Below are positions 968 to 18,044 of a stretch of 32,410 nucleotides of DNA, in pieces (position 1 is the stretch's first letter; every line of letters begins with the position of its first letter). The notes beneath the pieces are model-generated. The model was not told where the DNA came from. It saw only the letters and a list, made by a program, of their open reading frames with translations, and did no database searches. A program made the translations under genes and the position numbers. Source of the stretch: Roseateles toxinivorans (GTDB lineage: Bacteria; Pseudomonadota; Gammaproteobacteria; Burkholderiales; Burkholderiaceae_C); assembly GCA_945898095.1 (NCBI GenBank), contig CAMDHE010000051.1, forward strand, positions 1 to 32,410, given 5' to 3'.

Positions 968-1028
968 TCAGCGGGCTCAGGCGGATTTTTTCGGCTAATT
1001 TGGTATCCTGTAAGGCAGATGCCAGTTC

Positions 1029-1058
1029 GGTGCGGTGAACTCGCACCTTTATTTATTT
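1029..1058 (+). terminator. Hairpin with T-rich tail in the thiolase leader
   Basis: GGTGCG (1029-1034) and CGCACC (1042-1047) form a perfect 6-bp stem with a 7-base loop, followed by TTTATTTATTT. It looks like a weak intrinsic terminator for the upstream gene or an attenuator for the thiolase gene, whose ATG is 24 bases further on. AGTTC (1024-1028) can instead pair with GAACT (1037-1041), which would exclude the GC stem. Confidence 0.4.
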
Positions 1059-1081
1059 CAATCAGCAAGGGGATACAGGCG

Positions 1082-2266
1082 ATGAGTCAACGTGATGTGG
1101 TGGTATTGGGTGCAGCCCGCTCTGCAATTGGCACTTTCGGTGGCGGATTGGCCGACATCGAGCCGGCTGAATTGGCCGGGACCGTGATGAAGGAAGCCGT
1201 CAAGCGTTCGGGCGTTGACCCCGCCTTGATCAACTATGTGACGGTCGGCAACACCATCCCCACCGAAAGCCGTTTCCCTTACGTGGCCCGCGTTGCTGCC
1301 ATTCAGGCCGGCTTGCCGATGGATTCGGTCGCGATGTCGGTCAACCGCTTGTGCTCTTCGGGCCTGCAGGCGATCGTCACCACCGGCCAGAACATTCTTC
1401 TCGGCGATTGCGACTACGGCGTAGGTGGTGGCGTCGAAGTGATGAGCCGCGGCGGCTACCTGTCGACGGCAATGCGCAGCGGCGCACGCATGGGCGACAC
1501 CAAGCTGGTCGACATGATGGTTGCGACGCTGACCGATCCATTCGGCGTTGGCCATATGGGCATCACCGCCGAGAACCTGGTGGCCAAATGGGGCATCACC
1601 CGCGAAGAGCAGGATGCGTTGGCCGTCGAGTCGCATCGCCGTGCTGCAGCTGCCATCGCTGAAGGCCGTTTCAAATCGCAGATCGTGCCTATCGTGAAGC
1701 AGACCCGCAAGGGCGAAGTGACCTTCGACACCGACGAACATGTCAAGGTCGGCACGACGATGGAAACGCTGGCGAAGATGAAGCCGGCGTTCAAGAAAGA
1801 CGGTTCAGTGACCGCGGGCAATGCTTCGGGCATCAATGATGGCGCGGCCTTCTTCGTGCTCGCCGACGCGGCGGTTGCTGCGGCTGCCGGCCACAAGCCG
1901 ATGGCGCGGATCGTGTCCTATGCAGTCGCTGGTGTGCCCAACGAGATCATGGGTGAAGGCCCGATCCCGGCGACCAAGCTGGCGCTGAAAAAGGGCGGCC
2001 TGACACTTGACCAGATCGACGTGATCGAAAGCAACGAAGCCTTTGCAGCGCAAGCGATTGCAGTGTCGCGCGGCCTCGGTTTCGATCTCAGCAAGGTCAA
2101 TCCGAACGGCGGCGCGATCGCCCTCGGCCATCCGGTCGGTTGTTCCGGCGCCTTCCTGGCCACCAAGGCGATCTACGAGTTGCACCGCACTGGCGGCCGC
2201 TATGCGCTGGTGACAATGTGCATCGGCGGCGGGCAGGGCATCGCGGTAGTGTTCGAACGTCTGTAA
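1082..2266 (+). CDS. Acetyl-CoA acetyltransferase (thiolase)
   Basis: A 394-residue thiolase, the usual length for biosynthetic or degradative acetoacetyl-CoA thiolases (PhaA/AtoB type). The catalytic residues are in place: the nucleophile Cys91 in NRLCSSGLQ, His350 in GHPVGCSG and Cys380 in CIGGGQG, plus the NEAFA motif. The frame could be extended 21 codons upstream, but ATG 1082 follows AAGGGGAT at a sensible distance and gives the family N-terminus MSQRDVVVLGAARSAIG. It would join two acetyl-CoA to acetoacetyl-CoA or run the reverse in beta-oxidation. It stands alone, with no reductase or synthase beside it, so polyhydroxybutyrate synthesis cannot be told from fatty or aromatic acid breakdown. 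It may feed on products of the acyl-CoA genes downstream, but a 413-base gap and hairpins separate them. Confidence 0.93.
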   Translation: MSQRDVVVLGAARSAIGTFGGGLADIEPAELAGTVMKEAVKRSGVDPALINYVTVGNTIPTESRFPYVARVAAIQAGLPMDSVAMSVNRLCSSGLQAIVTTGQNILLGDCDYGVGGGVEVMSRGGYLSTAMRSGARMGDTKLVDMMVATLTDPFGVGHMGITAENLVAKWGITREEQDALAVESHRRAAAAIAEGRFKSQIVPIVKQTRKGEVTFDTDEHVKVGTTMETLAKMKPAFKKDGSVTAGNASGINDGAAFFVLADAAVAAAAGHKPMARIVSYAVAGVPNEIMGEGPIPATKLALKKGGLTLDQIDVIESNEAFAAQAIAVSRGLGFDLSKVNPNGGAIALGHPVGCSGAFLATKAIYELHRTGGRYALVTMCIGGGQGIAVVFERL

Positions 2267-2292
2267 ACAACATCTATCCCGTGAGGGAGAAC

Positions 2293-2330
2293 GGCCTTCA
2301 AGGCCAGGGGTGGTGCAGCAGCACCGCCCC
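2293..2330 (+). terminator. Tandem hairpins after the thiolase gene
   Basis: GGCCT/AGGCC (2293-2297 and 2301-2305) is followed directly by GGGGTGGTGC/GCACCGCCCC (2307-2316 and 2321-2330, one non-Watson-Crick pair, loop AGCA). The structures sit 26 bases after the thiolase stop and probably end or stabilise its transcript. There is no T-run, so factor-independent termination is uncertain. Confidence 0.45.
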
Positions 2331-2566
2331 GTCAATCCGGCAAGTCAGCCGGGCTTCGGGTGGGTATTTGACCTGACCCGGTCGGTCCTTGTGTCTGCAC
2401 AGCCGATTCAGTACCGCTAGTGCCTTGCCCCCAACGTGCGGCGACGCCGGCGTGAAAAACTGGTTTTCGACAAACACGCGACACCGGACGCCAGCAATGT
2501 CTTTCGGGCATCGAATGTCACCGCAACTTCAGAACGAGGCCAAAGCAATGGGCAGATTAAACGCCT

Positions 2567-2580
2567 ATACATATGTGTAT
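2567..2580. promoter_or_regulatory. Predicted operator copy 1 (upstream of acyl-CoA ligase)
   Basis: The 14-mer ATACATATGTGTAT is a palindrome with one mismatched pair and differs at one position from the shared form ATACATATATGTAT. The longer match CATATGTGTATG (2570-2581) recurs with one or two differences at 6284-6295 and 12195-12206. It lies 99 bases before the GTG start of the ligase, in an AT-rich island that probably carries the promoter. Binding by the GntR regulator at 11370-12128 is inferred. Confidence 0.6.
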
Positions 2581-2679
2581 GCTATATCTATGCGCATTGA
2601 GGTCACCGGTTGATTCCACCGCGACATCCTGTGACGCAGCAGTGCAGTCATCGATACTGAGCAAAGGACGGGCACCGAA

Positions 2680-4218
2680 GTGAAGACCATTGAAAGCGGA
2701 GCGACGGTCAGTTCGTTCTTCCGGGAATCGGTATCACGTTTCCCAGGCAACGAAGCGGTCGTTGCAGAGGATGTGCGCCTGAGCTATCACGATATGGGGA
2801 GTGCCGTCGCCTCTTTCGCTACAAAGCTTTCTTCGCTGGGTGCGAAGGACCGTCGGGTGGCACTGGTCATGGGCAATGGCGCAGCGATTGTGGTCGCGCT
2901 CCATGCAATCTGGGAAGCAGGCGCACAAGCTGTGCCGTTGAACCCCGACTACACGGATCGCGAGTTTGAAGAGATCCTTGAAGACGCGGATGTGTGGATC
3001 ACCATCTGCGGTGCATCCCAGCATGACAGGATTGGTGAACTGCTCAGTCGCCGCAGTCGCTCCCTTGTACTCGTGCTCGACTCTATCGACCTGGCCGACC
3101 TAGTCACAGGAACTGGCGAGATCTTGGGCCAACTGCCCCATCCAGATTCGTTGGCAATCCTTCAGTACACCGGCGGAACCACCGGTCGGTCCAAGGGGGT
3201 AGCGCTGACTCATCGAACGGTCGCTGTCAACGTCATGCAGCGCGATGAGGCGATTCCTATGCAACCAGGCAAGGAGCGAATTCTCTGCGTCACGCCGCTC
3301 TACCATGCCTACGCTACCGCAATGGCACTCTTCCCCGCGCTCTCGAGCGGAGGGGCGCTGGTCATCCTGACGCGGTTCAAGCCAGAGGCGGTTTTCGATG
3401 CGATCGAATGCGAACGAATCACCCTCTTCGCGGGTGCGCCTTCAATCTACAACGTCATGGTGACCCATCCGGAATTCGAACGCCGAGACCTTTCCTCACT
3501 GGCTGCCAGTTTCTCGGGTTCGGCGCCCTTGGCGGTGGACGTACTTGAACGCTGGCAGCGTGTGTCCGGCGCGCCGATCCTGGAAGGTTACGGGCTCACC
3601 GAGGCATCGCCGATCATCACATTCAATCCAAGGCATGGAACCCGCAAGGCGGGGTCGGTGGGTCCAGCCGTCAAGGGAACCACCGTGGAGGTCGTGGATA
3701 CGGAAGGGGGTACCCAAGCGCTGGCCGCCGGCAACATTGGTGAGGTGCGGGCGCGCGGTCCGCAGTTGATGAAGGGCTACCGTAACAGACCGAAGGAGAC
3801 TGCCGATGCGATCCGCGACGGCTGGCTCTATACCGGCGACCTCGGTGAACTTGATGAAGACGGGTACTTGTTCATCCGTGGTCGCAAGAAGGAAATGGTG
3901 ATCGTTGGTGGCTTCAATGTCTACCCGCGTGAAATTGAGGAAGTACTGTTCACCCTGGATGGAGTGCTGGACTGCGCAGTTGTCGGCGTTCAGGATCCGC
4001 GCTTGGGTGAAGCGGTGCATGCATTTTTGGTACGCGACGGCGCATCGCTCAGTGCGGACCGTGTGATGGAGCACTGTTCCCGGAATCTTGTTCGTTACAA
4101 GCTCCCAGCTCGGGTCAATTTTGTCCAAGTGCTGCCGCGAACCGCTGTGGGCAAGCTGGACCGAACAGCGCTCGGTAAGTTGGCCGAGGAACTGGTGCGC
4201 GCGGGGGAGCCGGAATGA
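2680..4218 (+). CDS. Acyl-CoA ligase (AMP-forming, ANL superfamily)
   Basis: A 512-residue adenylate-forming ligase that would activate a carboxylic acid with ATP and CoA. The P-loop-like motif YTGGTTGRSKG is at residues 163-173, GYGLTEASP at about 303-311, the ATP-binding YTGDLG, the hinge GRKKEMVIVGGFNVYPREIEE, and the C-terminal catalytic lysine Lys492 in TAVGKLDR. The start is GTG at 2680, with AAAGGA about 11 bases upstream; no better ATG fits. The ligase stop overlaps the next start by 4 bases (ATGA), so it is translationally coupled to an acyl-CoA dehydrogenase. That pairing and the downstream ring-oxidation genes suggest an aryl- or arylalkanoyl-acid substrate, but specificity cannot be read from the sequence and a fatty acid is equally possible. 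A predicted operator lies in the leader. Confidence 0.9.
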   Translation: MKTIESGATVSSFFRESVSRFPGNEAVVAEDVRLSYHDMGSAVASFATKLSSLGAKDRRVALVMGNGAAIVVALHAIWEAGAQAVPLNPDYTDREFEEILEDADVWITICGASQHDRIGELLSRRSRSLVLVLDSIDLADLVTGTGEILGQLPHPDSLAILQYTGGTTGRSKGVALTHRTVAVNVMQRDEAIPMQPGKERILCVTPLYHAYATAMALFPALSSGGALVILTRFKPEAVFDAIECERITLFAGAPSIYNVMVTHPEFERRDLSSLAASFSGSAPLAVDVLERWQRVSGAPILEGYGLTEASPIITFNPRHGTRKAGSVGPAVKGTTVEVVDTEGGTQALAAGNIGEVRARGPQLMKGYRNRPKETADAIRDGWLYTGDLGELDEDGYLFIRGRKKEMVIVGGFNVYPREIEEVLFTLDGVLDCAVVGVQDPRLGEAVHAFLVRDGASLSADRVMEHCSRNLVRYKLPARVNFVQVLPRTAVGKLDRTALGKLAEELVRAGEPE

Positions 4219-5960
4219 GTAGCTACAGGCCACCTCTTGACGAAATCTACTTTGCGCTGCGCACTTGGGCGAAGCTTCCGGCCTTGCTCAATCCGCCCGC
4301 CATCCCTGATTTTCCTGATGCCGAAACCATCTCTGCCGTGCTGAATGGAGCCGGTCGATTTGCTGTCGAAGTGCTGGCGCCGCTGGACGTGATCGGGCAC
4401 CGTGAAGGCTGCGAGTTGCGTCCGGATGGTAGCGTCCGCACGCCGAATGGCTGGAAGGAGGCTTACGCGCAGTTCGTCGCTGCAGATTGGAATACGGTCA
4501 ACTTTCCTTCACAGGTGGGTGGCCAGGGCCTTCCCTCTCCCGTGGCCATTGCCGTCGCGGAGATGTTCGAAGGTGCGAACCTCGCGTTTTCTCTGGCTCT
4601 CATGCCGTTTGCCGGCGTGGTGGCTTTGCTTGACCGGTTCGGAACTAACGACCAAAAAAGCCGCTACCTTGCGCCCTTGGTCAGTGGGCGCTGGTCGGCG
4701 ACGCTGGCGATGACGGAGAGCCATGCCGGCACCGATATTGGCGCGTTGCGCATGTCAGCATCCCGGCTGACCGAAGGATTTGGATTGCGTGGCCAGAAGG
4801 TCTTCATCAGTTATGGCGCACATGATTTGAATGAAAACATCTTGCACTTTGTGCTGGCGCGCGATCCGGCCGGTCGCGCAGGGGCGAAAGGGCTGTCTCT
4901 CTACCTTGTGCCAAAGCGACTTGTGAATCCGGATGGATCCCTTGGTGAACTCAACGACGTGCAGTGCATCGCGGTCGAAAGGAAGATGGGAATACATGGA
5001 AGTCCGACGACAACTCTGTTGTTCGGGGCAAAAGGCAGCGCTTGGGGCGAGCGTCTGGGCGATCCCTGCAAAGGACTGGACCACATGTTTGTCGTCCTTA
5101 ATCGTGCCCGACTCAACATTGGAGTGTTCGGGCTGGCATCTGCGGAGCGTGCTTGGCAGATTGCAAATGCCTATGCCAATCAACGGGTACAAGGCTTGGA
5201 CGCGGCTGGGCATCCCTGCGTGATTGCGCGGCATCCTGATGTACGTCGAATGCTTCTGGAGATGCAAACCGGCGTCGACGCCATGCGGGCGGTCTGCTAC
5301 TACGCGGCCGGCTTGCTTGAGCGGTCGCAGCGCGACGATGCCCCGGAAAAGCAGGATCAATGGCGTAGGCGACTCGACTTTTTGACGCCGGTCGTCAAGG
5401 GATGGGTCACCGAATTTGCTTACGAGACAGCCGGGACTGGCGTCCAGGTCGCTGGCGGAGCCGGCTATATGGATGAGTCGCCGGCCTCGCGTTGTCTGCT
5501 GGAGGCGCGGGTTCACACCATCTATGAAGGAACGACGGGAGTCCAGGCAATGGACCTGACGCTGCGCAAGGTGGCCAAGGACGGCGGCAAGGCTGCGGCC
5601 GAACTCCTTGATGAGATGGGCTCGATCTGGCCGATCGCTGCCCGCGCTGCCCGACTGGACGGCAATCTGGCGGACATCAAGGACGCCTTGTCCATGCTCG
5701 CAGCGGCCACTGATTGGATTGTCGGACATGCCGCATCAAAGCCGGCTGCTGTTCAGGCGGTCGGCGTTCACTATCTGATGATGTGGGGCTATGCAATCGG
5801 TGCATGGCTGATTACGACTGCGGCCCAGGAGCAGCCGTCAAGGGCTGCCAGGGCGAATTTTTTCCTGAGACACCGGTTGCCCCGCGTGCAGATGCATTGG
5901 CGGGTCATCGAGCATGGTGCGGATGAGGCCGCAGATGAGCTTGTTCAGGACAGCTCGTAG
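4215..5960 (+). CDS. Acyl-CoA dehydrogenase, large (FadE/DmdC-like)
   Basis: A 581-residue flavoprotein, longer than the roughly 380-residue classical acyl-CoA dehydrogenases and close to the size of the FadE/DmdC-type group with an added C-terminal region. Visible features are AMTESHAGTDIG (substrate/FAD loop), ERKMGIHGSPTTTL, the helical ARLNIGVFGLASAERAW and GGAGYMDESPASRCLLEAR. The probable catalytic base is Glu438 in IYEGTTGVQAMDL. It would introduce an alpha,beta double bond into the CoA thioester made by the upstream ligase, passing electrons to electron-transfer flavoprotein; no ETF gene is present here. The start overlaps the ligase stop (ATGA). Its 3' end overlaps the convergent Dabb gene by 16 bases, so this two-gene block ends without an obvious terminator. 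Confidence 0.9.
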   Translation: MSSYRPPLDEIYFALRTWAKLPALLNPPAIPDFPDAETISAVLNGAGRFAVEVLAPLDVIGHREGCELRPDGSVRTPNGWKEAYAQFVAADWNTVNFPSQVGGQGLPSPVAIAVAEMFEGANLAFSLALMPFAGVVALLDRFGTNDQKSRYLAPLVSGRWSATLAMTESHAGTDIGALRMSASRLTEGFGLRGQKVFISYGAHDLNENILHFVLARDPAGRAGAKGLSLYLVPKRLVNPDGSLGELNDVQCIAVERKMGIHGSPTTTLLFGAKGSAWGERLGDPCKGLDHMFVVLNRARLNIGVFGLASAERAWQIANAYANQRVQGLDAAGHPCVIARHPDVRRMLLEMQTGVDAMRAVCYYAAGLLERSQRDDAPEKQDQWRRRLDFLTPVVKGWVTEFAYETAGTGVQVAGGAGYMDESPASRCLLEARVHTIYEGTTGVQAMDLTLRKVAKDGGKAAAELLDEMGSIWPIAARAARLDGNLADIKDALSMLAAATDWIVGHAASKPAAVQAVGVHYLMMWGYAIGAWLITTAAQEQPSRAARANFFLRHRLPRVQMHWRVIEHGADEAADELVQDSS

Positions 5961-6250
5961 TCCGCCATCATCCGTTCCGTCCGCGCGCCAGCTATAAATG
6001 GGAATATGGCCTTGTGCTCGGGATGATCGCGGTAGATCTCGAGGGCGGCCCGGTCCTCGAACTCGGCGTACAGCGCCAAGTCGCCGCTGGTCTCGGAGTG
6101 CACGAAGTCGATGCCAACCTCGATTTTGAGCAAGCCCGGAATCTTGCCTTGTAGCGCTTCCAACTTTTCCTTGATCAGCACGGCGTTCTGGGCCGCCGTG
6201 TTGCCATGAGCTTCCGGCTTGAGACGCCAGATGATGATGTGCTTGATCAA
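5945..6250 (-). CDS. Dabb-domain (stress-responsive alpha/beta barrel) protein
   Basis: About 101 residues beginning IKHIIIWRLKPEA, with HKAIFPF and a C-terminal MMADYEL, a typical Dabb dimeric alpha+beta barrel length and pattern. I place the start at TTG (6248-6250) because GGGAG lies 6 bases upstream of it; the alternative ATG further upstream would add residues foreign to the family and run through the predicted operator. Dabb and related barrels include cofactor-free isomerases and cyclases as well as proteins of unknown function. The gene is divergent from the aldolase/ring-cleavage operon and shares its control region, so a role in handling a pathway intermediate is plausible but unproven. 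It converges on and overlaps the acyl-CoA dehydrogenase gene by 16 bases. Confidence 0.8.
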   Translation of the reverse strand: MIKHIIIWRLKPEAHGNTAAQNAVLIKEKLEALQGKIPGLLKIEVGIDFVHSETSGDLALYAEFEDRAALEIYRDHPEHKAIFPFIAGARTERMMADYELS

Positions 6251-6280
6251 TTTTTTCTCCCACTGATATTTTAAAAGCAT

Positions 6281-6294
6281 AAACATATATGTAA
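6281..6294. promoter_or_regulatory. Predicted operator copy 2 (between Dabb and aldolase genes)
   Basis: AAACATATATGTAA contains the perfect 10-bp palindrome ACATATATGT and matches ATACATATATGTAT at 12 of 14 positions. It sits between divergent start codons at 6250 and 6322, so one bound dimer could control both directions. TAAGAT directly to its right is a possible -10 for the aldolase operon. Confidence 0.6.
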
Positions 6295-6321
6295 GATAGC
6301 ACAATCGTCAAGGAGATTTAA

Positions 6322-7257
6322 ATGTCCCGTCCCTCCATCGGCCGCCACCTTGCGGCTCTGGTCATCCCGTTCAAGGAAAACTTCGACATCGACGAATCAG
6401 CACTGCGCCAGTTGTGCCAATTCATGCTGAAGGTCGATGGCATTGACGGACTCGTGGTCAACGCCAATGCCGGCGAGGTAGATTCGCTGACCGAGGAAGA
6501 GCGTCTCCATGTGTTGCGCGTGGCCCGGGACGAGGCGCATGCCGCTGGCAAATTGGTGGTTGGCGGCGTTGTACCAGTCCCGGGGACGAACGAGGCGGCG
6601 GTACGTACAGCCCGAACGATGCAGGATGAAGGCGCCGACGCGCTGCTTTTGCTCGGCCCGGCCTCTTTTGCCAGGGGCGTGGATGCCACGCCGGAAGTTG
6701 CCGGCAAGTACGCCCAGGATGTGGCGTCCGCAGTAAAAATACCAGTCATCTATTTCATGCAGGGTCCCATGTCCGGCATCAATTACTCGCCGGAAACCGT
6801 CAGGCAGATCTGTAGCGTTGACAATATTGTTGCCATCAAAGATACGATGTGGACGCCGCAAGGATTCGACGCGAACATCAAGTTGCTGCGCAATCTCGGT
6901 CGCGGAACCGTGGTACTCAGTGGCAATGACAATTGCCTGTTCCATAACTTCGCCTCGGGGGCGCAAGGAACGCTGCTAATCCTCCATTTGGTCATGGCCG
7001 AAGCGATTCTTGCAATGGAGGCAGCGATTTTGTCGAACGACCTCGACACAGCACGCAAGATCCACGAGCGACATGAGGCATTAGTGGGCCTGCTGTTCGC
7101 ACGGCCGATGCTGAAGATGCCCAGTCGCGTGAAGTTCGCCCTCAAGCAGATGGGCGTCATCCCCTCGGACCTCACACGTTCGCCCATTCCGCCGGTTTCG
7201 GCCGAAGAGGCCAAAGCCATCTCAGTGCAATTGAGAGAGCTCGGCATCACGAACTAA
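6322..7257 (+). CDS. DHDPS/NAL-family aldolase or hydratase-aldolase
   Basis: A 311-residue TIM-barrel protein of the dihydrodipicolinate synthase/N-acetylneuraminate lyase family. The Schiff-base lysine is Lys173 in IVAIKDTMW and the catalytic tyrosine Tyr144 in VIYFMQG. The usual GTTGE segment reads NANAGEV, pointing away from true DapA. Members of this family in aromatic pathways cleave or hydrate pyruvate-containing ring-cleavage products (for example trans-o-hydroxybenzylidenepyruvate hydratase-aldolase). Placed first in an operon with an extradiol dioxygenase and a Rieske dioxygenase, it most likely releases pyruvate and an aldehyde; this is inference. ATG 6322 has a strong AAGGAGA 5-6 bases upstream. 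It is divergent from the Dabb gene across a predicted operator and is followed 10 bases later by the SDR gene. Confidence 0.87.
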   Translation: MSRPSIGRHLAALVIPFKENFDIDESALRQLCQFMLKVDGIDGLVVNANAGEVDSLTEEERLHVLRVARDEAHAAGKLVVGGVVPVPGTNEAAVRTARTMQDEGADALLLLGPASFARGVDATPEVAGKYAQDVASAVKIPVIYFMQGPMSGINYSPETVRQICSVDNIVAIKDTMWTPQGFDANIKLLRNLGRGTVVLSGNDNCLFHNFASGAQGTLLILHLVMAEAILAMEAAILSNDLDTARKIHERHEALVGLLFARPMLKMPSRVKFALKQMGVIPSDLTRSPIPPVSAEEAKAISVQLRELGITN

Positions 7258-7267
7258 GGAGTCTTGG

Positions 7268-8047
7268 GTGGACCTCGGTATCAGGGATCAAGTAGCCGTC
7301 GTGGCTGCCGGAACACGGGGAATCGGCCTGTCGTGCGCCCTAGCGCTGGCCCGGGAAGGCGCGCGCGTTGCCGTGTTCGGCCGTGATCAGGCATCGTTGG
7401 CTAGTTGCGCTCGCGAGATTACTGCGATTGCGGGTTCGCCATGCCTGGCGCTGCAGGGCGACCTGCTGGAGGCCGATTCCGTCGCCAACGTGTTTGCTCA
7501 AGTCCGGGAACGACTTGGCCCCGTGAGGATCCTTGTTGCCAACTCGGTCGGACCACCGCCCGGCAGCTTCGATGTGGCAACGGATGAGGCTTGGCTTCGC
7601 GCCTTCGAAGGCGCCTTCCTCTCGACGGTCCGCATGGTCCGTGCCGTATTGCCTCAGATGCTTGAAGCCGGCTGCGGCTCGGTGGTAGCGGTTCAGTCTA
7701 GCTCCGTGAAGCAGCCTATACCCGGAATGTTCCTGTCAAACGGTGTGCGCCCCGGTGTCGCCGGTCTGATGAAATCCCTGACCCAGGAATATGCCAAAAA
7801 GGGACTGCGCTTCAACGTGGTGTGCCCAGGTCGCATCCACACAGAGCGGTTCATGAACGTAGAAAAGTCGCATGGTGGCGATACGGATGCACGCATTGCC
7901 CGATCGGCTGCCGAGGTGCCGATGGGCCGACTGGGGCATCCCGACGAAGTTGCGGACGCCGTTCTTTTCCTGGCGTCTGCGCGAGCTTCGTACATCACGG
8001 GATCAGTGTTGTCCGTCGACGGCGGCAATGTACGCGGCCTGTATTGA
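7268..8047 (+). CDS. Atypical SDR oxidoreductase lacking the YxxxK pair
   Basis: A 259-residue short-chain dehydrogenase/reductase fold. The nucleotide loop AAGTRGIG is at residues 13-20, VANSVGPPPG replaces the usual NNAG, and the C-terminus has the ITGSVLSVDGG signature. Ser144/145 is present, but where classical SDRs have Tyr-x3-Lys this protein reads Ser157-Asn-Gly-Val-Arg161 (in LSNGVRPGVAG). A subgroup of FabG-like SDRs with LSN..R in place of the active site is known and of unclear chemistry. The position between an aldolase and ring-opening dioxygenase genes is where a cis-dihydrodiol dehydrogenase would be expected, yet catalysis by the standard mechanism looks impossible. The start is GTG 7268 with AAGGAG 6 bases upstream. 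Confidence 0.87.
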   Translation: MDLGIRDQVAVVAAGTRGIGLSCALALAREGARVAVFGRDQASLASCAREITAIAGSPCLALQGDLLEADSVANVFAQVRERLGPVRILVANSVGPPPGSFDVATDEAWLRAFEGAFLSTVRMVRAVLPQMLEAGCGSVVAVQSSSVKQPIPGMFLSNGVRPGVAGLMKSLTQEYAKKGLRFNVVCPGRIHTERFMNVEKSHGGDTDARIARSAAEVPMGRLGHPDEVADAVLFLASARASYITGSVLSVDGGNVRGLY

Positions 8048-8056
8048 GGATCAACG

Positions 8057-8344
8057 ATGGCGCTTTACGACCTCGAGAGCTATCTGTTTAAATTGAAGAA
8101 TGATCCGATGTCGCAGCGAGCTCTGGTGGCTGATCCGAAATCGCACTTGGCTGTCCAGGCCATCGATGAAACTGCAAAGAACGCTATTTTGAACAAGGAC
8201 ATTGGAGCCTTGTGGCAGATGGGCGTCCATCCTCTCCTGCTGGTGCCGCTCTCTCGCTTCCTCGGAATGACGCCACTTGAGTATCGGCAGCGGCTCGCGC
8301 CGCACAAGGGCATTCGGTCTATCCGTAGCAGTTGGGAAGGGTGA
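8057..8344 (+). CDS. LigA-type small subunit of an extradiol dioxygenase
   Basis: A 95-residue, mostly helical protein with the LigA-family pattern: LESYLFKLKNDP, then LAVQAIDETAKNAILNKDIGALWQMGVHPLLLVPLSRFLGM in short pieces, and a polar C-terminus. LigA of protocatechuate 4,5-dioxygenase caps the active site of LigB; here it is shorter than the classical LigA of about 139 residues. ATG 8057 follows GAGGA at 6 bases. The LigB-type gene begins 2 bases after its stop, so the two are expected to be made together and form a complex. It has no metal ligands of its own. Confidence 0.83.
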   Translation: MALYDLESYLFKLKNDPMSQRALVADPKSHLAVQAIDETAKNAILNKDIGALWQMGVHPLLLVPLSRFLGMTPLEYRQRLAPHKGIRSIRSSWEG

Positions 8345-8346
8345 AG

Positions 8347-9168
8347 ATGAAAGGCGCGATTGTCTTTGCCGCCGGTGTCAGTCACGCGCCCCACATCACA
8401 GGGTTCCCCGACCACGCGCCTGTGGAAAGCAAGGTGCGTTTCTACGCGGCCATGAACGAGGTCGGTGCGCGCCTGCGGGCTGCGCGGCCGGACGTGGTGG
8501 TGGTGGTCTCATCGGACCATTTTCACAACCTCTTCACAGACAGAATGCCTGCCTTTTGCGTAGGCATGGCTGCCGAGCATCAGGGGCCAGCCGAACGCTG
8601 GATCCGGATTGAGCCATTTTCAGTGAAGGGTGCCCCGTCGTTTGCGCGCGCTGTGATGCAGCATGCTTTCAGGCTGGGGATGGATCCGGCTTTTTCGGAC
8701 CATGTGGTGCTCGAACATGGGTTGGCGGTGCCACTTTCCTTCCTGACCCCGGAATTCGACTATCCCGTCCTGCCAATCCTGCAAAACTGCATGGTGCCGC
8801 CCCTGCCACCCCTGCACCGCTGCTATGCCTTCGGTCAGGTACTTCGGGCAGCAGCAGAAGCTCAGGGGCTGCGCGTCGCCGTCGTCGGCACGGGAGGCTT
8901 GTCGCATGCGCCCGGCTCGCCCGACGCTGGCCGGATTGACATTGAGTTCGATCGAGCATTCCTCGAGATGTTGCAGACGCGGCCGATGGACGTCCTCGGT
9001 CTTACCGATGAACGAATTGACGCAGCTGGCTTCGGGACCTGGGAGATCCGGCAATGGGTTACGGCCTTGGGAGCAGCCGGCGGCGGCAAGGCTGAAGTAC
9101 TTGCCTACGAACCTGTTGAAGCTTGGGAAACCGGTTGTGGTGCGGTCGTGTTTTCGCTGGAGAGTTGA
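8347..9168 (+). CDS. LigB-type extradiol ring-cleavage dioxygenase catalytic subunit
   Basis: A 273-residue class III (LigB superfamily) extradiol dioxygenase. The probable Fe(II) ligands are His13 in VSHAPHITG, His58 in SSDHFHNLF and Glu233 in TWEIRQW, with the acid-base histidine His187 in TGGLSHAPG and His124 in LEHGLAVPL. It should open a catecholic ring next to, not between, the hydroxyls (meta cleavage), using molecular oxygen. The start at 8347 is preferred over the frame-extended 8332 because the latter would overlap the LigA gene and add residues before the conserved N-terminal strand. The Rieske oxygenase alpha gene starts 9 bases after the stop. Whether the substrate is protocatechuate, gallate or another diol cannot be read from sequence. 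Confidence 0.92.
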   Translation: MKGAIVFAAGVSHAPHITGFPDHAPVESKVRFYAAMNEVGARLRAARPDVVVVVSSDHFHNLFTDRMPAFCVGMAAEHQGPAERWIRIEPFSVKGAPSFARAVMQHAFRLGMDPAFSDHVVLEHGLAVPLSFLTPEFDYPVLPILQNCMVPPLPPLHRCYAFGQVLRAAAEAQGLRVAVVGTGGLSHAPGSPDAGRIDIEFDRAFLEMLQTRPMDVLGLTDERIDAAGFGTWEIRQWVTALGAAGGGKAEVLAYEPVEAWETGCGAVVFSLES

Positions 9169-9177
9169 AGGAGAAAT

Positions 9178-10440
9178 ATGAAAGCCAGTCGAATCGACCT
9201 GCGCGCACTGGTCAGGCCCGAAAAGGGCCTGATCGGCAAGGCGATCTTCTCTGATGAGGATGTCTATCGCAGAGAGTTGCAACAGATATTCGCGCGCTGC
9301 TGGCTGTACCTCGGCCATGAATCTCAATTGGCTCAGGAGAACGATTTTTTCACCACGCTGATGGGAGCAGATACCGTCATCGTGACTCGGTCAGGCGGGA
9401 AAATCCGTGCCTTCCTTAACGCCTGCACGCACCGTGGCATGAAGGTCTGCCGGACAGACCGCGGCAATGCGGCTGACTTTACCTGCCCGTACCATGGCTG
9501 GTGCTTCTCCTCATCGGGAGATCTGGTGGGCGTCCCTGGCATGCGTGAGGCCTACAACCACAAGCTTGACACCAAGCAATGGGGACTAAGGGAGGTCGCG
9601 CAACTGGATACCTTTCATGGTCTGATTTTTGCCACATGGTCCGCCGATGCGCCTTCACTGGCGACTCACCTGGGCGATATGAGTTGCTACTTGGACCGAA
9701 TGCTCAACCGAATGGAAGGTGGTGTCGAAATGATCGGCGCCGTCCAGAAATGGGAGATGCCGGTGAACTGGAAGCTGATCGCCGAGAATTTTCTGGGCGA
9801 TTCGTATCATGTGGGGACGACGCATGGGTCGGTGGTCGATATTGGTTTTCGCAAGCGGCCGAAAAAAGAGGGCTACCAGATTTCCATCCGCGGCGGCCAT
9901 GGATTCGGCTCTGAGCTTGGCGGCTTTGGCGCCAGTGCCGAACCCACGCCCTATGAGACCTACCTGAACACTGTTCGGTCAAAGCTGACGGCCGCGCGCA
10001 ATCCGGTCGACCAGTTCATCCCCTTGGGCCATGGCACGATCTTCCCGAACATGTCGTTCCTGGACGGCGTGAAGTTCAGGATGATCCGCATGTCGCATCC
10101 CAGGGGGCCTGGAATGACCGAGAGCCACACCATGTGTTTTGTCGACAAGGCGCTGCCTGAACACTTGCGCGATGAAGTCCGCAGAAGTTTCATCCTGGCG
10201 TTTGGCCCGAGCGGGATGTTCGAGGTCGAAGATGGCGAGGTTTGGGGTGAGGTCTGCGACGGTCTGCGTGGGCATGTCGCCTCATCCATGGATTTCAATT
10301 ACCAGATGGGCCTTGGCCAGGACGTACCGGTCAGTGAAAAGTTCGGCGGAGACCTTCCTGGCCGGGCGGGCTGGTACTGGAGCGAGGTCAACCAGCGCGA
10401 GTATTACCGCCGCTGGCTGGAACTCATGGAGGCAAAATGA
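9178..10440 (+). CDS. Rieske ring-hydroxylating dioxygenase, alpha subunit
   Basis: A 420-residue oxygenase alpha subunit. The Rieske [2Fe-2S] motif is C83-T-H85-x17-C103-P-Y-H106. The mononuclear iron site is formed by His211 and His216 in D208-x2-H-x4-H, with Asp352 in EDGEVW as likely third ligand and Asp208 as the electron-transfer bridge. The N-terminal region (VYRRELQQIFARCWLYLGHE, NACTHRGMKVCR) resembles the biphenyl/toluene/phenylpropionate dioxygenase group more than phthalate-type enzymes, by my reading. It would add O2 to an aromatic ring to give a cis-dihydrodiol. ATG 9178 follows AAGGAGA. Its stop overlaps the beta subunit start (ATGA), as expected for an alpha3beta3 enzyme. Confidence 0.94.
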   Translation: MKASRIDLRALVRPEKGLIGKAIFSDEDVYRRELQQIFARCWLYLGHESQLAQENDFFTTLMGADTVIVTRSGGKIRAFLNACTHRGMKVCRTDRGNAADFTCPYHGWCFSSSGDLVGVPGMREAYNHKLDTKQWGLREVAQLDTFHGLIFATWSADAPSLATHLGDMSCYLDRMLNRMEGGVEMIGAVQKWEMPVNWKLIAENFLGDSYHVGTTHGSVVDIGFRKRPKKEGYQISIRGGHGFGSELGGFGASAEPTPYETYLNTVRSKLTAARNPVDQFIPLGHGTIFPNMSFLDGVKFRMIRMSHPRGPGMTESHTMCFVDKALPEHLRDEVRRSFILAFGPSGMFEVEDGEVWGEVCDGLRGHVASSMDFNYQMGLGQDVPVSEKFGGDLPGRAGWYWSEVNQREYYRRWLELMEAK

Positions 10441-10943
10441 GCGGCCTTGGCGACGCACAACTGTATTTCGAGGTTCGCAGCTTTCAGGCGCGGGAGGCCG
10501 TGGCGCTACAGACTGCTGACTACGATACTTGGCTTGCCATGATGATGCCTGATGTGACTTACCGCGTTCCAGTGGTCAGCGTGGGCGAGGATGTGGCGGC
10601 CTCCGAATCTGGCACCCGCGAGCTCGCGCATTACGACGACACTTTAGAGACTCTCAGAATCCGGGTGGCACGCATGCGCAGCCGCATGGCGTGGACGGAA
10701 ATTCCACCGTCGCGGGTTCGTTATTTCGTCGATCCCATCATGATCAGGGCCGAAGGTGAGGATGTCTTCGTCACAAGTAACTTCACGGTCTACCAAGCCC
10801 GCTTGCAGCGCGAAGAGAACTGGTATGTCGGCAGGCGCGACGACCGCCTGCGGCGCATCGGGGGCCAACTCCTGCTGGCCGAGCGTGTGGCGGTCATCGA
10901 CCGCGCCGTTCTGCCGGGCAAGAACCTCACTGTTTTTATCTGA
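10437..10943 (+). CDS. Rieske ring-hydroxylating dioxygenase, beta subunit
   Basis: A 168-residue NTF2/SnoaL-like small subunit. Family signs are the N-terminal helices with QTADYDTWLAMMMPDVTYRVP, VRYFVDPIMIRAE, and the conserved C-terminal GRRDDRLRR and AERVAVIDRAVL. It carries no cofactor and stabilises the hexamer with the alpha subunit. The start overlaps the alpha stop by 4 bases. After its stop there is no larger frame for 100 bases, only a 31-codon small ORF that runs into the ferredoxin gene. Confidence 0.93.
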   Translation: MSGLGDAQLYFEVRSFQAREAVALQTADYDTWLAMMMPDVTYRVPVVSVGEDVAASESGTRELAHYDDTLETLRIRVARMRSRMAWTEIPPSRVRYFVDPIMIRAEGEDVFVTSNFTVYQARLQREENWYVGRRDDRLRRIGGQLLLAERVAVIDRAVLPGKNLTVFI

Positions 10944-10951
10944 GTATTTCA

Positions 10952-11047
10952 ATGGCCACCATCGACCCGGCTGGGAAGCAAGTCCTGGTCGACCAGATCA
11001 TCAATCTATTGACCGTCCGGGCGACCCGGGCTGAGGCAGCCGAATGA
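10952..11047 (+). CDS. Candidate 31-residue small protein ahead of the ferredoxin gene
   Basis: ATG 10952 opens a 31-codon frame (begins MATIDPAGKQVLVDQIINLL, ends with TRAEAAE) whose TGA overlaps the ferredoxin ATG in an ATGA junction, the same coupling used at the alpha/beta junction. It starts 8 bases after the beta-subunit stop and fills the 100-base gap almost exactly. The predicted peptide is a single amphipathic helix followed by a charged tail, with no cysteines and no signal. The ribosome site is weak (GAG about 8 bases upstream). It may be a real small subunit or only a translational coupler that feeds ribosomes into the ferredoxin gene; I do not recognise a family. Confidence 0.5.
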   Translation: MATIDPAGKQVLVDQIINLLTVRATRAEAAE

Positions 11048-11355
11048 GTTGGGTACGGGTCGCCGACGAGACTGAGATCTTTGAGGGTTATGGGTTCGCT
11101 GCGACCGCAGGAATCCGCCACATCGCAATCTTCAAGGTGGAAGACAGCTTGTATGCGTGCGAAGGAATCTGCACTCATGCGCACGCGTTTCTTGCCGAAG
11201 GGTATGTCGAGGGCGACGAGGTGGAATGTCCGATGCACTTAGGCCGATTCAATTTCCGGACTGGAAAGGCTGTCTGTGCGCCTGCTCGGGTGGATCTCAA
11301 CACTTTCCCCGTCGAAGTTCGCGACGGCGGCGTTTTTGTCGATATACCAGCCTGA
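11044..11355 (+). CDS. Rieske-type [2Fe-2S] ferredoxin
   Basis: A 103-residue Rieske ferredoxin of the BphF/NahAb kind. The cluster motif is C43-T-H45-x16-C62-P-M-H65, followed by FNFRTGKAVCAPA and the terminal strand GGVFVDIPA. It would carry electrons from an NAD(P)H-dependent reductase to the oxygenase encoded just upstream, making this a three-component system. No ferredoxin reductase gene is present in the window. The start overlaps the small ORF stop (ATGA); the stop is 14 bases from the stop of the convergent GntR gene, with no obvious terminator between them. Confidence 0.93.
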   Translation: MSWVRVADETEIFEGYGFAATAGIRHIAIFKVEDSLYACEGICTHAHAFLAEGYVEGDEVECPMHLGRFNFRTGKAVCAPARVDLNTFPVEVRDGGVFVDIPA

Positions 11356-11369
11356 CTTCTGCGGCTTTT

Positions 11370-12128
11370 TCAGCGAATCCGCGGCGATACTTTCGCAATC
11401 TTGCCCTTGGTCCTGTCCTGTGTCAGGTCCATGTCGAAGCGAAACTGGAATCGATCACCGCGAAACCAGATTTCCGGAGTGTGAACAAGCCGGCCGTCGC
11501 TGGCGAACAGCGCCCCCTTGAAAAGCAGCACCGGTGTAAGCGGGTCGATTTCGAGTAAACGGGAAATTTGCAGTGGTGGCGTAACAGATTCCAGGTTGAT
11601 TTCCACGTTCCTCAGGTCTAGCCCGAACTGCTCGCGGAGGATTCGGAACATGGGGTAGCGGCGCAACTTGACGAGCGTCATTTGCTTGCCGAATTCGGGC
11701 AAGACGTGGTGCACCGAATAGCTCCATGGCCGGCCATCAATGCGGGCTATGCGGCAGATTTCGTAGACCTTGTCAGATTCAAATCGCAGGCGCAGGTGCG
11801 CCGGCGTGTCCACAAGCTTCTTCTCGAGAATCTCCGTACCCGCGTCGAACTCGTCAGAAAACATCAATTCAAGCGCAGATTGGGTATTCATCTCCAGCAC
11901 GGAGATGTCCTTCCGCACAAACGTTCCGCGCCCGCGGTGCCGTTCGATCAGGCCTTCATCCTCAAGTTCACGAAGCGCGCGCTGCACCGTGATCACGCTT
12001 ACGGCATAGTCCTCGACGAGTTGAAGCTCAGTCGGCAGTTTGGCGCCTGGCAGGTAGGTCCCCCGGGTGATTTCCGCGCGCAAGAGTTGGGCGATCTGGT
12101 AAGTAATCGGAATTTTTCTTGAGTACAT
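11370..12128 (-). CDS. GntR-family transcriptional regulator (HutC type, UTRA domain)
   Basis: A 252-residue regulator. The winged helix-turn-helix spans about residues 8-75 (ITYQIAQLLRAEI, LPTELQLVEDYAVSVITVQRAL, the wing RHRGRGTFVRKD), and the C-terminal UTRA ligand-binding domain spans about 95-235 (VYEICRIARIDGRPWSYS, LLFKGALFASDGRLVH, EIWFRGDRFQF). HutC-type regulators are usually repressors released by a pathway metabolite. It lies between the ring-cleavage operon (convergent) and the transport operon (divergent), which suggests local control. The palindrome at 12192-12205 in the shared upstream region and its two copies elsewhere are candidate targets. A second small inverted repeat, TGAACTGAGTTCA (12128-12140), abuts its start codon. 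No strong ribosome site is visible. Confidence 0.92.
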   Translation of the reverse strand: MYSRKIPITYQIAQLLRAEITRGTYLPGAKLPTELQLVEDYAVSVITVQRALRELEDEGLIERHRGRGTFVRKDISVLEMNTQSALELMFSDEFDAGTEILEKKLVDTPAHLRLRFESDKVYEICRIARIDGRPWSYSVHHVLPEFGKQMTLVKLRRYPMFRILREQFGLDLRNVEINLESVTPPLQISRLLEIDPLTPVLLFKGALFASDGRLVHTPEIWFRGDRFQFRFDMDLTQDRTKGKIAKVSPRIR

Positions 12129-12191
12129 GAACTGAGTTCAGGAATCGGAGCTTGACAGAGAAACTGCGATGTCGGACGATACAATACCTAT

Positions 12192-12205
12192 ATCCATATA
12201 TGTAT
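12192..12205. promoter_or_regulatory. Predicted operator copy 3 (gntR / transport operon)
   Basis: ATCCATATATGTAT is a palindrome with one mismatched pair and matches ATACATATATGTAT at 13 of 14 positions. It lies between the divergent starts of gntR (12128) and the binding-protein gene (12266), so it could serve both autoregulation and control of the transporter. A perfect TTGACA at 12152-12157 lies nearby, but TACAAT (12180-12185) is 22 bases away, too far for a normal sigma-70 pair. Confidence 0.62.
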
Positions 12206-12265
12206 GAGTTCTCGTTAAAAATTTGGTAACTTTTTTCATTTCATCGCAAGTATTGAGGAGACATC

Positions 12266-13423
12266 ATGATCAATCGCAGAACTTTCGCCAAACATGCCGG
12301 ACTGGCCGCGGTTACCGGTATTGTCCCCGGTATTGCCAGCGCCCAGGCCAGCCGTGAACCCCGCCGCATCGGATTCCTCATGCCCCTTACCGGCGGTTCG
12401 GGCAAGTTGGGCCAGATGATGCTTGAAGGTGCGACAGTTGGCGTCGATGAGATCAATGCCGGTTCAGGCGCGGGTGGCCGACTCATCGAACTCGTCCAGG
12501 AGGATAGCCAGGCCTTAGCCCAGCAGGCTATTGCAGGGTTCAGAAAGCTGGTCGACGTCAACAAGACGGATGTCATTTTTACCGGTTGGACAGCGGTCGT
12601 CTCGGCGATCGCACCACTTGCCAGTGAATCGAAAGTGATGCTGGTGTCTGCCAGCACGGCATCGCCTGCCGTGCGTGGCATTTCGCCATTCTTTCAATCG
12701 ACATGGATGTTCGACGACGAGACGGTCAAGCTGATTCTGCCGTACGCCAAGGACAAGCTGAAGGTGAAGTCACTGGCTGTCCTGACCGTCGTGAGCGATC
12801 TTGGCACCGCGCTTGCTCAGGCTGTCAAGGCAGACTGGACCCGCATCGGCGAGCAGATCGTCGCGGAAGATGTCCACCAGCCCGCCGAGGCCAACTTCCG
12901 CCCGATCTTGATCAAGCTATTGGGTGCCAAGCCGGATGCGATTTACCTCACGAGTTCCAATGGCAAGCAGTTGGCGCAGATCGTAAGACAAGCCAGGGAA
13001 ATCGGCTACAAGGGCATTTTTCTGAGTTATGGCGCCTTCGAGGATCCGGAGGTACTCACACTGGGGACGCAGGCGGACGGCTGCTATTACTCCTCGCCAT
13101 CCTACGACGCGGCAAATCCGGGACCTACAGGCCGCAAGTTTGTGGATGCCTTCCAGAAAAAGTACAGCCGACTGCCCAATGTTCACCAGGCCAATCACTA
13201 CGATCTCGTGCTCCTTTATAGCGCCGTTGCCGACGGCCTGGCCAAGCAGAACAAGGCTTTGACGGGTGCGAGCTTCCGAGACTACCTCAGCGCCACAATG
13301 CCGCAGTACCAGGGTGCAGCTGGCGCCTACAAGTTCAACTTCAAGGACGGCAGTGTGCTTCGGTCGTCAATCGTAAAAGTCGTGCGCGACGGAAAGTTTA
13401 CGAAACTCGATGATCTGAGCTGA
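12266..13423 (+). CDS. ABC transporter substrate-binding protein (Liv type), Tat-like signal
   Basis: A 385-residue periplasmic binding protein of the leucine/isoleucine/valine-binding (type I periplasmic) fold. The N-terminus NRRTFAKHAGLAAVTG resembles a twin-arginine signal and ends at a likely signal-peptidase site after ASAQA (near residue 29). The mature part opens with RRIGFLMPLTGGSGKLGQMM and contains the lobe-linking segments typical of LivJ and of binding proteins for aromatic acids and amides. It probably captures the substrate of the catabolic genes, given the neighbouring regulator; the ligand itself cannot be predicted. ATG 12266 follows GAGGAGA. The permease gene begins 14 bases after the stop. 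Confidence 0.9.
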   Translation: MINRRTFAKHAGLAAVTGIVPGIASAQASREPRRIGFLMPLTGGSGKLGQMMLEGATVGVDEINAGSGAGGRLIELVQEDSQALAQQAIAGFRKLVDVNKTDVIFTGWTAVVSAIAPLASESKVMLVSASTASPAVRGISPFFQSTWMFDDETVKLILPYAKDKLKVKSLAVLTVVSDLGTALAQAVKADWTRIGEQIVAEDVHQPAEANFRPILIKLLGAKPDAIYLTSSNGKQLAQIVRQAREIGYKGIFLSYGAFEDPEVLTLGTQADGCYYSSPSYDAANPGPTGRKFVDAFQKKYSRLPNVHQANHYDLVLLYSAVADGLAKQNKALTGASFRDYLSATMPQYQGAAGAYKFNFKDGSVLRSSIVKVVRDGKFTKLDDLS

Positions 13424-13437
13424 AGTTTGGACGGCGC

Positions 13438-14322
13438 ATGGAGCAGTTCACTCTTTTTATCAACCTGCTCCTTGATGGACTCGCGACAGGCTGCCTCTAT
13501 GCGCTGGCGGGCATCGGTTTTTCTTTGCTGTGGTGGTTGGCGGATATTGTTCACCTTGCCCATGGCGGGGTGATTATTGCCTCAGGCTATGCCGGCTACC
13601 TTGTTCTCACTAAGTTCGGCGCCCCCCTGTGGATGGCGCTGGCGGCATCGATCCTGACTGCCGTGATGCTGGGCATGCTGATTGACAGGCTGGCTTACCG
13701 GCGACTTGCGAAGCGTGGGTCTGGTGAAATGGGGATGCTGACAGTATCTTTGGGCCTGTTGATTTGCCTTGAGTACGGCGTAACCCTCATCTTCGGGCCC
13801 GAAGGTGTGCAGGCCGATCCTGGGCCTGCGCGAATACCGCTGTTTCCGAGCTCCGGCGTTTTGCTTGATGGCTATACGCTGTCGGTTGTTGCCGGCACGG
13901 CAGCTGTATTCGCCGGGCTCGCATTCCTGATGCGGTACAGCCAACTTGGAATCAACATGCGCGCCGTCGCAGAGAACCCGTCGCTAGCCCACTCTTTGGG
14001 CATCAAGACGCTCCAGGTGACGACCGCTGCGAGTGCCTTGGCGGCTGCCGCCGGCGCGCCAGCGGCGCTCGTCTACCTTTACAGCCGTGGACTAACCCCG
14101 CACGATGCCATCCACATTGTACTCATGGGGGCGATCGTAGCAATTTTTGGTGGACGCGGGTCCATCGCCGGAGCGATGATCGCTGCGCTGTTGATCGGCA
14201 TCGCCGAGAGTGTCATGGTCTGGTTCTTCGCCGCGGGCTGGCGCGAGGTCATGACCTTCGGACTTCTCTATCTCCTGCTACTCGTGCGGCCGGAAGGCTT
14301 GCTCGGGGCCAGTTCCCGCTGA
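13438..14322 (+). CDS. Branched-chain amino acid type ABC permease (LivH-like)
   Basis: A 294-residue integral membrane protein with about eight hydrophobic segments. The N-terminal FINLLLDGLATGCLYALAGIG and the cytoplasmic coupling region around MRAVAENPSLAHSLGIKT are hallmarks of LivH permeases, and GRGSIAGAMIAALLIGIAES is typical near the end. It forms one half of the transmembrane channel with the LivM-like protein encoded 9 bases downstream. The start ATG 13438 has only a weak purine-rich site. It belongs to the five-gene importer beginning at 12266. Confidence 0.92.
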   Translation: MEQFTLFINLLLDGLATGCLYALAGIGFSLLWWLADIVHLAHGGVIIASGYAGYLVLTKFGAPLWMALAASILTAVMLGMLIDRLAYRRLAKRGSGEMGMLTVSLGLLICLEYGVTLIFGPEGVQADPGPARIPLFPSSGVLLDGYTLSVVAGTAAVFAGLAFLMRYSQLGINMRAVAENPSLAHSLGIKTLQVTTAASALAAAAGAPAALVYLYSRGLTPHDAIHIVLMGAIVAIFGGRGSIAGAMIAALLIGIAESVMVWFFAAGWREVMTFGLLYLLLLVRPEGLLGASSR

Positions 14323-14331
14323 AACCAACTG

Positions 14332-15207
14332 ATGGGTTACCTCGTCCACATCCTTAGCACGGCGGGTATTTTCGCCATTTTGGCGCTTGCCCTCGACTTG
14401 CTTGTCGGCTTCGGCGGGATGATGTCGCTGGCTTCTGGGGTCTTCTTCGGTATCGGTGCTTACTCCAGCGCGTTATTGCTTAAAGCGGGATGGTCGATGC
14501 CGGTGGCCATGCTCTTCGGCATGGGGTTCTCCACTGTCCTGAGTTTGGTCATCGCTTTGCCTGCGATCCGAATTCGTGGTGTCTATCTCCTGATAGTGAC
14601 AATTTCTGTTCAGATGATCTTCACGACCATCGTTCAGAACTGGCGCTCGGTCACTGGCGGTGACGCTGGCGTTTCCAACATCCCGCCGATTTCGATTCTG
14701 GACTGGAAACTGCGTGGCTTGCCCTTTCTCGCGCTGGTCATTGCCAGTTGCGTCTTGCTGTTGTTATTGATGCGAAGGATCGCCGACTCGCCGTTCGGTC
14801 ATGTCCTGCGGGCGATTCGCGATGATGAAGTCGGTGCGGCATCGCTGGGCAAGCATTCAACGGCTGCAAAACTCGCAGCTTTTGGCCTTTCTGCATGCAT
14901 TGCCGCTTACGCTGGATCACTCTATGCGCACTACACGTCATACATCGATCCGCATTCCTTCAACATCAGCCTTTCAATCATGGTCCTCCTGATGGTCATG
15001 CTGGGCGGGGCGGGAACCTTGGTCGGACCCATGGTCGGCGCGATCGTCCTCACAATCCTCCCCGAAGCGCTCAAATTTCTTCCCCTACCTCCCGGCGCCG
15101 CCCCAGCGCTGAGGCAGTTGAGCTATGGCGCGCTCCTTGTCATCGTCGTTTTCCTGCGACCCCAAGGGCTGCTCGGTAAAGCCTCGGCGCAGCGCCGTAC
15201 GCACTAA
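14332..15207 (+). CDS. Branched-chain amino acid type ABC permease (LivM-like)
   Basis: A 291-residue membrane protein. LivM signs are the early segments LALDLLVGFGGMMSLASGVFFGIGAYSSA in pieces, the coupling helix RAIRDDEVGAASLGKHSTAAK and LGGAGTLVGPMVGAIVL. It lacks the long N-terminal extension of some LivM proteins. It pairs with the LivH-like permease. Its TAA shares a base with the ATG of the first ATPase gene (TAATG), so translation is coupled. Confidence 0.92.
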   Translation: MGYLVHILSTAGIFAILALALDLLVGFGGMMSLASGVFFGIGAYSSALLLKAGWSMPVAMLFGMGFSTVLSLVIALPAIRIRGVYLLIVTISVQMIFTTIVQNWRSVTGGDAGVSNIPPISILDWKLRGLPFLALVIASCVLLLLLMRRIADSPFGHVLRAIRDDEVGAASLGKHSTAAKLAAFGLSACIAAYAGSLYAHYTSYIDPHSFNISLSIMVLLMVMLGGAGTLVGPMVGAIVLTILPEALKFLPLPPGAAPALRQLSYGALLVIVVFLRPQGLLGKASAQRRTH

Positions 15208-15974: not shown

Positions 15975-15976
15975 GT

Positions 15977-17952: not shown

Positions 17953-17968
17953 CTTGTACTCTTAATGT

Positions 17969-18044
<76 letters not shown>

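Follow-up and report, generated by a model that had tools for sequence, protein, structure and literature searches.

Which regulator acts on three near-identical palindromes in a gene cluster for aromatic degradation in Roseateles toxinivorans, and how would it recognize them? The cluster lies on a stretch of 32,410 nucleotides (GenBank assembly GCA_945898095.1, contig CAMDHE010000051.1, positions 1 to 32,410 of the forward strand), which we call the window, and it encodes its own GntR-family regulator with a UTRA domain. We consider it likely that the palindromes are the operators of this regulator, which probably keeps three units (ligase, Dabb/aldolase, and gntR/transporter) repressed unless a ligand derived from the pathway is bound.

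Three copies of one palindrome

A preliminary description of the window had reported 14-mers at three positions that match a palindromic consensus at 13, 12, and 13 positions. We recovered these 14-bp near-palindromes with one, two, and one mismatches to the consensus ATACATATATGTAT. The AC...GT order described earlier holds for the consensus, but the left half of site 3 reads CC instead of AC. Self-complementary pairs number 6/7, 5/7, and 6/7 in sites 1, 2, and 3, which are as follows:

Site 1, 2567-2580, no strand assigned: ATACATATGTGTAT; the acyl-CoA ligase start lies about 100 bp downstream, and the site is inside a 20-bp block (2566-2585) that is identical in a congener, genome G017
Site 2, 6281-6294, no strand assigned: AAACATATATGTAA; in a 71-bp region between the divergent Dabb and aldolase genes, with the site centre 1.5 bp off its middle
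Site 3, 12192-12205, no strand assigned: ATCCATATATGTAT; in a 137-bp region between the divergent gntR and transporter genes, with the site centre 1.5 bp off its middle

When up to three mismatches were allowed, 100 shuffles of the window gave a mean of 0.08 matches. The window itself contains, beyond the three sites, one match only, at 12184, which is site 3 in a shifted register. We also carried out the genome-wide scan with two mismatches that the preliminary description had proposed. In the whole assembly (4,713,174 bases in 209 contigs, the window being contig C51), four places were found, the three sites and C20:33018-33031, so there are not many copies elsewhere. Since the reversed pattern, used as a control, also occurs at three places, the genome-wide count alone is unremarkable and near background. 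The signal is the clustering, as three of the four places fall within 9.6 kb.

Because the motif had first been chosen by eye, we used a selection-aware test. All symmetrised 14-mers were scored over five non-coding stretches, each 40 bp or longer, that we defined in 1-18000, taking as the score the best symmetric 14-mer summed over three of the five. The top motif was exactly ATACATATATGTAT, with 38/42 positions matched. None of 72 dinucleotide shuffles reached this score (mean 32.3, maximum 34).

The genes around the sites are arranged as follows:

Block 1, 2680-5960, plus strand: acyl-CoA ligase (2680-4218) and acyl-CoA dehydrogenase-like protein (4215-5960)
Dabb-domain (stress-responsive A/B barrel) gene, 5945-6250, minus strand: divergent from the aldolase operon
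Block 2, 6322-11355, plus strand: dihydrodipicolinate synthase (DHDPS)-family aldolase, short-chain dehydrogenase/reductase (SDR), LigA-like and LigB-like extradiol subunits, ring-hydroxylating dioxygenase alpha and beta subunits, Rieske ferredoxin
gntR, 11370-12128, minus strand: GntR/UTRA (HutC-subfamily) regulator of 252 amino acids, with Pfam GntR and UTRA matches
Block 3, 12266-17469, plus strand: branched-chain-type ATP-binding cassette (ABC) transporter (binding protein, two permeases, two ATPases) and an SDR

The sites had been described as intergenic, each just before a block. That arrangement stands for the three blocks, but site 2 lies between the divergent Dabb gene and the aldolase gene, and the thiolase gene (1019-2266) has no copy in front of it. 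Because it is placed between two divergent genes, site 2 may serve both units. The 71-bp length of this region and the mid-position of site 2 depend on our choice of a TTG at 6250 as the Dabb start, where the domain match begins; the mechanical open reading frame (ORF) is longer, reaching 6304, and would cover site 2. In a review of the GntR family, the single operator site of divergons is described as mid-intergenic (PMC4494728).

Among 99 relatives searched, a close ortholog of the regulator was present only in G017 (99.6% identity; next best, 33%). A scan of genome contigs returned one relative, CAIJIT010000141.1, from an uncultured Burkholderiales metagenome-assembled genome, which we take to be the same contig as that of G017. 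The two clusters share 93.8% DNA identity over 15 kb, with 906 mismatches. All three 14-mers are identical in G017, and this is informative mainly at site 1. There, the aligned surroundings (2539-2680) contain 25 differences in about 142 bp (about 82% identity), and the 20-bp block around the site (TATACATATGTGTATGCTAT) contains none. In 16 congeners that lack a close ortholog of the regulator, three of which are less than 92% complete, the motif occurred at 0 to 2 places each with up to two mismatches, 10 altogether. Orthologous clusters were also sought through LigB in 399 genomes of the order. Eight of the best relatives, at 37 to 44% identity, all lie in other gene contexts. In the 7 to 20 kb around each of these eight, no regulator match was listed and the best motif match had five mismatches; these loci serve as background.

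Directly behind the G017 cluster, at the point corresponding to window 17497-17534, are about 5.5 kb of extra DNA (contig C141, 15107-20613) that adjoin a tRNA gene. This DNA opens with a short piece of the window thiolase (residues 348-391, 86% identity), a rearrangement. In the window, a tRNA-Ala gene (anticodon CGC) at 17969-18044 on the minus strand overlaps the 3' end of an ORF (328 aa) for which Pfam gave no match. Farther along, an efflux-type operon (26112-31158) comprises genes for a TetR-family regulator and an HlyD-type membrane fusion protein together with an ORF whose 1056 aa match the size of a resistance-nodulation-division pump.

The regulator and its recognition residues

GntR subfamilies, HutC included, are divided by the C-terminal domain (PMC4494728). 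The window regulator has an N-terminal GntR winged helix-turn-helix (HTH; PF00392, 73.4 bits versus a cut-off of 27) and a C-terminal, chorismate-lyase-like UTRA domain (PF07702, 72.2 bits versus a cut-off of 23.8), both of which define the HutC subfamily. It scored 87.2 bits against the equivalog model of the histidine-utilisation repressor HutC (TIGR02018, cut-off 220) and was also below the cut-offs for PhnR, PhnF, and the trehalose repressor. Judged by these domain matches, the regulator is a member of the HutC subfamily and is none of the named equivalogs (HutC, PhnF, PhnR, or trehalose repressor).

The best solved relative is NagR/YvoA of Bacillus subtilis. In a sequence alignment to this protein, Leu35, Val45, and Gln49 of the window regulator occupy the positions of FadR Arg35, Arg45, and Arg49, which are Arg38, Arg48, and the following arginine of NagR. 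NagR Arg38 and Arg48 read G-5 and G-4, as do FadR Arg35 and Arg45, and the guanine-reading positions of NagR flank six central bases (PMC4333415); FadR Arg49 contacts the backbone (PMC4494728, table 1). The two guanine-reading arginines are a usual, non-defining trait of the subfamily, and the window regulator has Leu35 and Val45 in their place. We surveyed 90 distinct HTHs from 96 loci, a sample that is biased because it was collected by similarity. Arginine was present at NagR position 48 in 57/90 and at position 38 in 12/90. Four of the 90 are without arginine at all three positions: the window regulator and three of SLGTVQ type, one of which is in the same genome at C19:38934.

On contig C19 of the window genome (G000), the gene for the second arginine-less UTRA regulator (L148, 10812-11651) directly follows a GMC oxidoreductase gene, and the genes for an FCD-type GntR protein and a CoA-transferase come after it. 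Sulfonate-type genes, for phosphosulfolactate synthase, 2-phosphosulfolactate phosphatase, and an aliphatic sulfonate transporter, are close to relatives of the SLGTVQ regulators at L162, L169, and L171. We also considered the best plasmid homolog of the window regulator, from Cupriavidus necator N-1 (32.5%), and set it aside, as its residues at the three positions are Ser/Leu/Arg and the palindrome has no clear counterpart there.

The usual HutC-subfamily operator is NyGTMTAKACNy, with exceptions listed (PMC4494728). The window consensus ATACATATATGTAT departs from this usual, non-defining type in having C-4/G+4 and the order AC...GT; a GT...AC-type core for comparison is GTATATAC. Thus, the contrast with GT...AC sites drawn in the preliminary description holds against the published consensus (PMC4494728). 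The palindrome appears to fit the NagR frame, with positions -5 and -4 around six central bases, and to carry A and C there instead of G and G. Because the arginines replaced by Leu, Val, and Gln include two that in NagR and FadR read guanines of the operator, loss of these base-reading residues is a likely cause of the change from GT...AC to AC...GT.

We envisage that a dimer of the regulator would bind ATACATATATGTAT-like sites ahead of the ligase operon and centrally in the two divergent regions, Dabb/aldolase and gntR/transporter. The bound dimer would block the ligase, Dabb/aldolase, and gntR/transporter units, and a pathway-derived ligand binding the UTRA domain would release it. By analogy with the subfamily, in which repression is usual, the regulator most likely represses rather than activates. 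At the level of contacts, our guess, based on general chemistry, is that Val45 and Ile46 might pack on thymine methyl groups and Gln49 might read an adenine.

Residue class and operator type in related regulators

If arginine loss is coupled to the inverted operator, arginine-less relatives would be expected to carry such sites. In genome G509 (contig C5, L149, 9385-9419), two AC-N6-GT palindromes, TAACGATATAGTAA and TTACTATGTAGTAA, lie 21 bp apart, about two helical turns, in the divergent region that separates a DctP solute-binding gene from the gene of an arginine-less UTRA regulator. We defined an AC...GT palindrome as one with C-4, G+4, and A-5 or T+5, at least 6/7 pairs, and a location within 250 bp upstream of the regulator gene. 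This criterion was fixed after L081/L149 and before more relatives were collected.

In the follow-up, three of nine new arginine-less members had an AC...GT palindrome and none of the nine had a GT...AC palindrome. On plasmid pNK84 of Caballeronia sp. NK8 (L163, 2339-2352), ATACTATGTAGTAT is upstream of an arginine-less GntR gene, and its ATAC/GTAT ends are those of the window consensus. The L163 regulator gene is near an acetoacetate decarboxylase gene. The other two are arginine-less regulators on two related Sulfitobacter plasmids, with TAACTACGTAGTTG. In G238, a similar copy, ATACTATGAAGTAT, has 5/7 pairs and falls short of the criterion; by the locus layout it is on the 3' side of an arginine-less regulator. 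Checks for the UTRA domain covered only the window regulator and the members on G000 C19 and G509 C5.

The final tally comprised 110 loci. The duplicates of the window locus, the G017 copy, and long context loci were left out by design; one short upstream and two identical ones were dropped as well. AC...GT palindromes were upstream of 5/13 arginine-less members, 2/59 with Arg48, and 1/38 others. As shared ancestry inflates locus counts, we give the comparison of arginine-less members with all others both by locus (5/13 versus 3/97, one-sided Fisher p = 0.0005) and by clusters of 60% HTH identity (4/11 versus 3/51, p = 0.015). Shuffling the upstreams of the 13 arginine-less loci over 200 rounds gave a mean of 0.25 AC...GT loci and a maximum of 2. 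The reverse association was also seen: GT...AC palindromes were present at 15/59 loci with Arg48 and 0/51 without (p = 0.00003; clusters, 6/33 versus 0/29, p = 0.018). In a first form of this test, which compared Arg48 with a symmetric G-4 in the best palindromes, the figures were 5/10 versus 0/8 clusters (p = 0.036). Survey loci with Gln at NagR position 48 have SdhR-like sites of the GTCTTATATAAGAC type, in which GT is kept further out from the centre. Upstream of Gln48 gntR-type genes at L014, L020, L024, L030, L033, L077, L082, and similar loci, there is a GTCTTAT/ATAAGAC palindrome that resembles the SdhR site described in the literature.

From this association we tentatively propose, at somewhat less than even confidence, that an arginine-less GntR/UTRA branch, with a hydrophobic residue and a glutamine for two recognition-helix arginines, uses the inverted operator WWAC-N6-GTWW with the same fold and the same 14-bp frame. 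The window cluster and the plasmid-borne regulators of Caballeronia and Sulfitobacter would be cases of it.

Competing explanations and known systems

That one local GntR/UTRA regulator acts through one kind of operator, as suggested earlier, is the reading best supported by the sequence data. We favor it because there are few copies in the genome, the sites are kept in G017, sites 2 and 3 are mid-intergenic, and site 3 lies in the divergent promoter region of gntR itself. Some observations weigh against it. As a lone palindrome, site 3 is no better than shuffles (p 0.68); the evidence lies in the recurrence of the palindrome and not in this copy by itself. In the collections searched, one other species only carries the cluster. 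In that species there are few differences near site 2 (4 in 106 bp) and site 3 (3 in 137 bp), and since the surrounding DNA is nearly identical, conservation of these two sites adds little. Promoters could not be placed relative to the sites, as a scan of 1-18000 gave four promoter-like matches versus 6.3 expected.

The proposed coupling to arginine loss faces objections of its own. Eight of the 13 arginine-less members lack an AC...GT palindrome. Four of these (L146, L162, L165, and L166) have a codirectional gene at most 75 bp ahead, so that an operator of their own is not required, and the other four (L147, L160, L161, and L164) have no such explanation. Conversely, AC...GT palindromes occur at three loci with arginines (L013, L141, and L172). 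The 13 include the window locus and L081, which shaped the criterion, and the L081 palindromes alone are no better than shuffles (p 0.70). Within the follow-up batch (L160-L176), arginine-less members and others do not differ significantly (3/9 versus 1/8, p = 0.34), and two of its three positives are closely related; support for the link from this batch holds only in comparison with shuffles and with the loci collected earlier.

The palindromes could instead be operators of a transcription factor encoded elsewhere in the genome, with the local GntR protein binding other sequences. The connection between sites and regulator is drawn from sequence, and because the HTH arginines that read GT...AC are missing, the family rule does not directly predict such a motif. 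However, a single further place in the genome within two mismatches does not suggest a widely used factor, site 3 is centred in the regulator's own divergent region, and the AC...GT type recurs at arginine-less relatives. The sole other regulator identified in the window, the TetR protein at 26112-26840, adjoins efflux-type genes. We therefore consider another factor unlikely. A shared promoter element with incidental symmetry, such as an extended -10 or an alternative sigma-factor site, is less likely again. It would account for AT-rich sites upstream of genes, for the plus-strand G directly after all three copies, and for the flanks common to sites 1 and 2 (TTAAA.GC.T before, G.TA after). 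It fits poorly with distances to the start codon of about 100, 28, and 61 bp, with the position of sites 2 and 3 midway between divergent genes, and with a nearly perfectly symmetric core, and no sigma-70-type match in 1-18000 lines up with all three sites. We regard chance similarity as very improbable. The stretches around sites 2 and 3 are AT-rich (29% and 38% G+C) and the reversed pattern occurs three times in the genome, but none of the 72 selection-aware shuffles reached the observed score, the window shuffles gave a mean of 0.08 matches, and the 20-bp block at site 1 is intact in G017.

Taken as a regulon, with one regulator and three proposed operators, the finding is real and in itself rather ordinary. 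Its distinguishing point is the inverted operator coupled to arginine loss, with hints of a wider branch. GntR is a large bacterial family, and the operator rule of GT...AC with arginine-guanine contacts is used for regulon prediction; a 2015 correlation study retained only regulators with consensus-type palindromes (PMC4494728). If the proposal is correct, rule-based predictions of this kind would miss a branch that has lost the arginines and whose operator is a mirror image of the usual one. The window is a compact test case, as it combines a single regulator with three natural sites and a difference in two or three residues. In a literature search with the motif letters, none of the matches listed concerns, by title, a GntR operator, and a search on UTRA/GntR regulators of aromatic catabolism listed no paper on such an operator.

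Among known gene clusters, those for biphenyl and phenylpropionate dioxygenases (bph, hca) share with the window cluster the oxygenase alpha and beta subunits, ferredoxin, an SDR, and an extradiol cleavage enzyme, and the enzymes of these pathways are the nearest solved structures to the window alpha subunit. The window cluster differs in its LigAB-type ring cleavage, DHDPS-family aldolase, and GntR/UTRA regulator, and no reductase is among its annotated genes. GntR-type regulators are also known from carbazole clusters.

Among known regulators, NagR/YvoA resembles the window protein in its GntR HTH and UTRA domains, and its dre operators have six central bases between the -5 and -4 positions, the frame that the window palindrome fits. 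Unlike NagR, which reads G-5 and G-4 through Arg38 and Arg48, the window regulator has Leu and Val and its sites have A and C; moreover, the window cluster has no sugar-phosphate genes nearby. FarR, NagQ (direct repeats), and SdhR (TCTTATGTCTTATATAAGACATAAGA) are HutC-subfamily exceptions whose sites, like the window operator, depart from GT-N4-AC, but in the parts of PMC4494728 that treat them none is described as an inverted AC...GT palindrome. Closest in this respect are the arginine-less regulators of SLGTVQ/SLGTIQ type (L081/L149, L163, L167, and L168). Although they are far from the window regulator in sequence and have other gene neighbors, they share with it a hydrophobic residue at NagR position 48, Gln at position 52, and AC-N6-GT upstream.

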